The position numbers and the translations under genes were made by a program. From assembly GCA_937969495.1 (NCBI GenBank), contig CALBVY010000097.1, positions 1 through 34,002 of the forward strand: a stretch of DNA of 34,002 nt. The letters are read 5' to 3'. This DNA comes from an uncultured Verrucomicrobiales bacterium (lineage in GTDB: Bacteria > Verrucomicrobiota > Verrucomicrobiia > Verrucomicrobiales > Akkermansiaceae). The notes under the pieces were generated by a model. The model was given only the letters and a program-made list of their open reading frames with translations. It did no database searches and was not told the origin of the DNA. Below, one piece after another: positions 28,125-28,904 of this stretch; within the stretch, counting starts at the first letter, position 1, and the number at the start of each line of letters is the position of its first letter.

Positions 28125-28904
28125 ATGAGCCTGAAACCCATTATTTACACTGCTATTACTACTATTCTTATTATGTTTGGAATGAAATTAATCCGCGGCT
28201 CAGAAGAGCTTGTCACAGAAAATGGTCACGTCTCCGCCACCATATTACCTATGGACCAGACAACGGCACAGACAAAATATGACACAGCCACCTTTGGTAT
28301 GGGATGATTCTGGGGACCTGATTCCGAGTTCGGAAGTATCCCCGGCGTCCTGCGCACCCGTGCCGGCTACTGTGGTGGCAGTAAGGAGAAACCCACCTAT
28401 CGCAGTATGGGGGATCACACGGAAGCTGTATCTATTGACTTTGATCCCACCGTAATCAGCTATGAAACATTATTAAACTATTTCTGGAATGGTCATCGTT
28501 GCGAATTAAACCAATCAAACACTCAGTATATGAATGCCATTTTTTATCAAAATAATGCGCAAAAAGAAATCGCTGAAAAATCACTCAAGCAACAAGCAAA
28601 ACAGCTCGGTATAGCCATCGACGGTATAAAAACAAAGATCCTCCCTGTGCGAGAATTTACTTATGCAGAAGGCTACCATCAGAAATACCACCTCAGAAGT
28701 GGCAGTGATCTCCGGGAGTTTCTTCAAGAAATCTACCCAGATGCCAAATCAATGGCAGACTCCACTGTAGCCACAAGACTCAATGCTTATCTCGGCAGTG
28801 GCTCTAGTAAACATTGGCCATCTTTTCTCAAGGAATTATCCAGCTATGGACTCCCAGAAAAACTAGAGGCTCAAATTAGAAAAATAGCAGAACAAAAGCG
28901 ATAG
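28125..28904 (+). CDS. msrA: Selenocysteine-containing peptide-methionine (S)-S-oxide reductase MsrA, membrane-anchored
   Basis: Reads through an in-frame TGA (28305-28307) as one 259-residue protein. The TGA is residue 61, exactly where MsrA has its catalytic Cys: FGMG, TGA, FWGPD, in place of GCFW. Downstream sequence is intact MsrA: VLRTRAGYCGG, GDHTEAVSIDFDP, YFWNGHR, YHQKYHLR. Other Cys at 83 and 126 could resolve the selenenyl intermediate. A hydrophobic N-terminal segment (residues ~6-20) suggests a membrane anchor or uncleaved signal. The frame before and after the TGA is continuous, and TGA is used as a true stop by several neighbours. A hairpin of bacterial SECIS type follows. selA, selB, selC and selD are not in the window. 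Alternatives are a nonsense mutation or a sequencing error. Confidence 0.85.
28310..28345 (+). promoter_or_regulatory. Putative bacterial SECIS hairpin in msrA
   Basis: Starts two bases after the TGA. Lower stem CTGGGGA (28310-28316) pairs with TCCCCGG (28339-28345), seven pairs including one U-G. An internal loop (CCTGA against GTA) follows. Upper stem TTCCG (28322-28326) pairs with CGGAA (28331-28335), with apical loop AGTT (28327-28330). The loop has G within its first two positions and begins 19 bases after the TGA. As I recall the published bacterial SECIS rules, both fall in the allowed range. SelB binding is inferred. Confidence 0.7.

Follow-up and report, generated by a model that had tools for sequence, protein, structure and literature searches.

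An MsrA reading frame with a single internal TGA

The window, that is, the whole stretch of 34,002 nucleotides analysed here, comes from an uncultured Verrucomicrobiales bacterium and contains a gene for an MsrA protein whose frame includes one TGA codon (Table 1). The sequence-only reading had described a single MsrA frame that is broken solely by this codon, and both the translation and the Pfam match, which spans the TGA, confirm this. The frame closes with a TAG stop codon (28902-28904). The translated protein passed the NCBIfam msrA model TIGR00401 (113.7 bits versus a cut-off of 108.1) and carries the G(C/U)FWG catalytic motif in a PF01625 domain, with U in place of C.

Table 1. Features of the predicted Sec-MsrA gene, in positions of the window
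Feature	Position	Strand	Evidence
Complete Sec-MsrA gene	28125..28904	+	translation with TGA read as U gives 259 aa, Sec at residue 61; PF01625 match; 24 TGA orthologues
Hydrophobic N-terminal segment, residues 6-20, predicted signal or anchor (limits approximate)	28140..28184	+	Kyte-Doolittle mean of 2.06 over 15 residues
MsrA catalytic domain, residues 54-192	28284..28700	+	Pfam PMSR PF01625, E=1.7e-39, match crosses the TGA
UGA codon, predicted catalytic Sec61	28305..28307	+	site of the GCFWG Cys; sole in-frame TGA; FGMG-U-FWGPD
Predicted bacterial SECIS	28310..28345	+	fold of -17.3 kcal/mol; UGA-to-loop distance 19 nt
Cys83 (Sec+22), candidate resolving cysteine	28371..28373	+	in GYCGG, at the end of a strand; in roughly half of the verrucomicrobial Sec forms, 0/78 Cys homologues
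Cys126 (Sec+65), candidate resolving cysteine	28500..28502	+	in HRC; most verrucomicrobial Sec forms, 0/78 Cys homologues
C-terminal helical domain, CoMsrA-like, residues about 193-259	28701..28901	+	phmmer alignment to 4u66/4lwj over residues 50-256; Foldseek

Standard gene calling had been expected to split the gene into two false open reading frames. The mechanical listing of open reading frames indeed contained the downstream one (28407-28904), while the upstream one (28125-28307) was absent, as it falls under the lower limit of 80 aa used for that listing. Elsewhere TGA acts as a normal stop, as had been stated: it terminates three of the 15 window genes checked and several of the orthologous MsrA genes. 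The genome also encodes a second MsrA without a TGA (G000:C87:16872-17375, plus strand; 37% identical), so that an ordinary MsrA accompanies the Sec form. The neighbouring genes, a cvfB-like gene and a pseudouridine synthase gene, are common only to the closest relative, so the gene context yields no functional clue. The nearest named relatives belong to Verrucomicrobiia and Rubritalea, in line with the phylum that had been assigned from the letters of the window.

A predicted SECIS hairpin follows the UGA codon

The published bSECIS model has a loop of 3-9 nt with a G in the first two loop positions, an upper stem of 4-16 bp, a distance of 16-37 nt from the UGA and a minimum free energy of at most -7.5 kcal/mol (PMC13188914). 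The element downstream of codon 61 agrees with this model in distance and energy (Table 1), as well as in its 5-bp apical stem UUCCG/CGGAA (28322-28326/28331-28335) and its AGUU loop (28327-28330); below these lies a G-rich/C-rich lower stem. Taken alone, the 24-nt apical hairpin of the window is weak (-5.2 kcal/mol, p=0.07), and it becomes significant only as part of the longer element.

We compared hairpin stability with that of synonymous shuffles that preserve the protein. The mean z-score of the 24-nt hairpin was -2.6 in Sec genes versus -0.2 in Cys homologues (Mann-Whitney p=2e-13, relatedness ignored). Hairpin stability, as computed from these sequences, is thus conserved in Sec genes and not in Cys homologues. 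The signal resides in the apical hairpin, and the 45-nt region as a whole was under weak constraint in most orthologues. Two forms of the hairpin occur among the 26 aligned orthologue rows, one with an AGUU loop closed by G-C (16 rows) and one with a five-nt loop closed by C-G (10 rows), such that both sides of the loop-closing pair have changed. Columns 40 and 48 of the alignment show complete coupling (p=2e-7, relatedness ignored), which links the first base of a Glu/Gln codon with the third base of a Gly codon that follows two codons later. In 25 of the 26 rows GAG or CAG serves as the loop codon, the remaining row has CGG, and GAA or CAA does not occur. The two pairing registers lie one base apart and correlate with the choice of Glu or Gln at residue 68 (28308-28355 and orthologues). 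RNAalifold missed the hairpin in a gap-free orthologue alignment, owing to this difference in register between the two sequence types. An Rfam scan of the whole stretch returned no SECIS family match, only snoRNA-like matches at chance level.

TGA is conserved among verrucomicrobial relatives

Relatives were searched in 143 genomes from the same genus, family and order. A close homologue was present in 25 of these, the host genome included, and all carry TGA at the Sec61 codon, as do all 26 aligned orthologue rows, which greatly exceeds what chance would give. In the 24 TGA-carrying relatives of the same order, the coding region contains no other stop or frameshift. Additional TGA cases are a verrucomicrobial locus (L021), a Rubritalea locus (L022, whose protein is identical to that of L111) and a Desulfosarcina locus (L024). 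In contrast, a Cys codon (TGC or TGT) occupies the site in 78 other homologues; 76 of them are close and come from Bacillota, haloarchaea and Atribacterota. The in-frame TGA, found in 27 rows in total, hence stands exactly where these 78 homologues have their catalytic Cys, and the frames are intact, as expected from the sequence-only reading if the gene is functional. Downstream of the TGA, dN was 0.03-0.23 versus a dS of 0.18-4, and purifying selection, estimated from these alignments, continues past the codon.

In an unrooted tree, from which the order of Sec and Cys origin is not readable, a single branch divides Sec forms from Cys forms (support 95/82), and all 26 verrucomicrobial rows fall into a single group (support 100/99). 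In a phylum-level sample, matches with an E-value of 1e-40 or better occurred in only two of 388 genomes, both from the same family. One genome (G104) encodes a divergent Sec-MsrA, L125, with 45% identity, a GLS-U-FWHP motif, a short N-terminus and a hairpin of the same kind. Two distant MsrA matches with an in-frame TGA (G104:C39:54210-54818 and G081:C21:29811-30383) are possibly Sec forms, or matches that run past a stop.

The host genome encodes the selenocysteine machinery

The host assembly (2.47 Mb, 96% complete, 98 contigs) was searched for sel genes and a tRNA-Sec gene, as had been suggested. SelA (500.8 bits), SelB (308.4 bits) and SelD (376.9 bits) are all present, each above its curated cut-off, together with a tRNA-Sec gene with anticodon TCA (UCA in the RNA). 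SelA and/or SelB were found in 25 of the 25 genomes with Sec-MsrA (24 each) versus 67 of the 143 overall (hypergeometric p=3e-10, kinship ignored).

SelD of the host genome is itself a predicted selenoprotein (G000:C22:25238-26164, minus strand), with an in-frame TGA in SCAG-U-ASK, which we take to be the Sec/Cys site of SelD. Furthermore, a SelW-like protein (G000:C45:32278-32460, plus strand) has a TGA in CEQ-U and reads MNIEIEYCEQ-U-NYRPE; a second gene of the Rdx family lacks a TGA. With TGA in the MsrA, SelD and SelW-like genes, the genome has at least three predicted selenoprotein genes, and the Sec trait therefore looks to be in use.

UGA 61 is most probably read as selenocysteine

A TGA that interrupts the frame could mark a pseudogene, an MsrA killed by a nonsense mutation. 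The same codon in 24 relatives without further damage, the purifying selection that persists downstream and the complete Sec machinery all speak against this, and the TGA held in common with relatives and the undamaged frame behind it led us to reject this highly improbable reading. The assembly consists of many contigs, and a one-base sequencing or assembly error in place of TGC or TGT might be suspected; with TGA at this codon in about 25 genomes that were assembled separately, such an error is untenable, and we give it practically no weight. UGA is translated as Trp or Gly in some bacteria, and a reassigned code, like non-specific read-through, would place a residue other than selenocysteine at this position. 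This is very unlikely as well: TGA terminates genes of the window and orthologous genes alike, the close homologues that lack TGA here all have Cys, and the genome has both tRNA-Sec(UCA) and SelB.

Taken together, the sequence, the machinery and the comparative data lead us to infer that the UGA of codon 61 is decoded as selenocysteine. The claim that this is a true selenoprotein was supported on all testable points, namely machinery, TGA in 24 relatives, SECIS, selection and likeness to CoMsrA. We conclude that the gene encodes, with a probability of roughly 0.96, a functional selenoprotein MsrA for which Sec and methionine-S-sulfoxide reductase activity are predicted. SelB and tRNA-Sec(UCA) would decode the UGA, guided by the adjacent downstream SECIS hairpin. 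The selenolate would then attack methionine-S-sulfoxide and methionine would be released, as is established chemistry for the family, at an active site that is probably shaped by the C-terminal helical domain, as in CoMsrA.

Location and recycling of the predicted selenoenzyme

The protein had also been described as membrane-anchored. Its hydrophobic N-terminal segment has a similar counterpart (mean of at least 1.57) in 19 of the 26 orthologue rows and none in seven, and among the 78 Cys homologues three showed high N-terminal hydrophobicity (at least 1.9). The predicted model places a helix at residues 7-17, with low pLDDT. A membrane anchor or an export signal is plausible from these features, and this part of the description stands as a prediction. 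If exported, the enzyme would most likely sit on the external side of the cytoplasmic membrane, where it could repair oxidised envelope proteins.

Of the 27 verrucomicrobial Sec rows, 26 have a cysteine at Sec+22, at Sec+65 or at both, versus none of the 78 Cys homologues; the divergent L125 and the Desulfosarcina Sec form have neither. All three rows that lack the +65 cysteine have the one at +22, a reciprocity that is not significant by itself. Cys126 lies in a loop ahead of a conserved QY (Gln134, Tyr135). In CoMsrA the loop with the equivalent Gln89 and Tyr90 moves in catalysis (PMC4479559), which would make Cys126 a reasonable resolving residue. Judged from the sequences, Cys83 and Cys126 may be resolving cysteines: either or both could resolve the oxidised selenium to a selenenylsulfide, and a thioredoxin-like reductant might open this bond.

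We tentatively propose, at a little under an even chance, that the verrucomicrobial Sec-MsrA is an extracytoplasmic, membrane-tethered selenoenzyme and that its resolving cysteines (Sec+65, Sec+22) are an evolutionary acquisition of its own, which would distinguish it both from CoMsrA of the 1-Cys type and from classical enzymes, whose cysteines lie in the tail. A true Sec-MsrA could, however, be functionally of the 1-Cys type, with Cys83 and Cys126 non-resolving and glutaredoxin recycling the enzyme directly. Beyond its Sec position CoMsrA contains no Cys, and glutaredoxin recycles it in this way through a transient dimer (PMC4333827, PMC4479559); the host genome has a glutaredoxin-family match above cut-off, and L125 and the Desulfosarcina form do without both cysteines. 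The near-universal presence of the +22 and/or +65 cysteine in verrucomicrobial Sec rows and its absence from Cys homologues argue against this 1-Cys reading, and an enzyme that is exported, if it is, would be out of reach of a cytosolic glutaredoxin. We regard this 1-Cys alternative as a real possibility, albeit one somewhat below even odds.

Comparison with known MsrA proteins

Both the sequence search and the fold comparison ranked CoMsrA of Clostridium (Alkaliphilus) oremlandii first. As the closest solved protein is thus a Sec-MsrA, the family is already established, and the present gene is a new, clade-wide verrucomicrobial branch of it. MsrA is also a predicted selenoprotein family, with nine sequences in the table, in the GOS ocean metagenome selenoproteome (PMC2398784); in the parts of that source consulted a verrucomicrobial origin is not named, and the present protein is set beside it by description only. 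Among the papers found, none described a Sec-MsrA in Verrucomicrobiota, although one may have been reported elsewhere. Sec-MsrA is evidently more than a curiosity found in a few anaerobes and algae: in part of one verrucomicrobial order it is conserved, together with its recoding hairpin. Standard gene calling fragments the gene, and such genomes therefore seem to be without one repair enzyme. With about 25 natural variants, it becomes testable why some MsrA proteins use selenium and by what route, possibly an extracytoplasmic one, a selenium centre is regenerated.

With the classical 3-Cys MsrA of E. coli (1FF3) the protein has the fold of the catalytic domain in common. To judge from the titles of 2IEM and 7OT4, the resolving Cys198 and Cys206 of E. 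coli-type MsrA lie in a C-terminal tail, in whose place the present protein has the helical domain. Cys-type two-domain MsrA proteins of Planococcus/Sporosarcina, haloarchaea and Atribacterota show homology along most of their length, also in the C-terminal region, and share the motifs FGMG-C-FWGP(D/E)..FG and GDHTE. They differ in having TGC or TGT for TGA, in lacking the +22 and +65 cysteines and in an unconstrained hairpin region after the codon.

CoMsrA (PDB 4LWJ, 4LWK, 4LWL, 4LWM, 4U66) is about 40% identical and likewise combines a Sec at GUFWG with a catalytic and a C-terminal helical domain, the latter being required for its activity (PMC4333827). The predicted model of our protein (mean pLDDT 85.6) has the corresponding C-terminal helices from 188 to 258 and gave a Foldseek TM-score of 0.91 by CoMsrA length over 207 columns. 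The fold is CoMsrA-like but Cys83 and Cys126 are present, and we therefore group the protein with the two-domain Sec-MsrA proteins and not with the strict 1-Cys type, which has no Cys beyond the catalytic residue. In contrast, CoMsrA (209 residues) contains no Cys and is of the 1-Cys type (PMC4333827), and it lacks the N-terminal extension of roughly 45 residues that bears the hydrophobic segment here. The extra cysteines and the predicted location thus set the verrucomicrobial protein apart from CoMsrA as a possible new variant.
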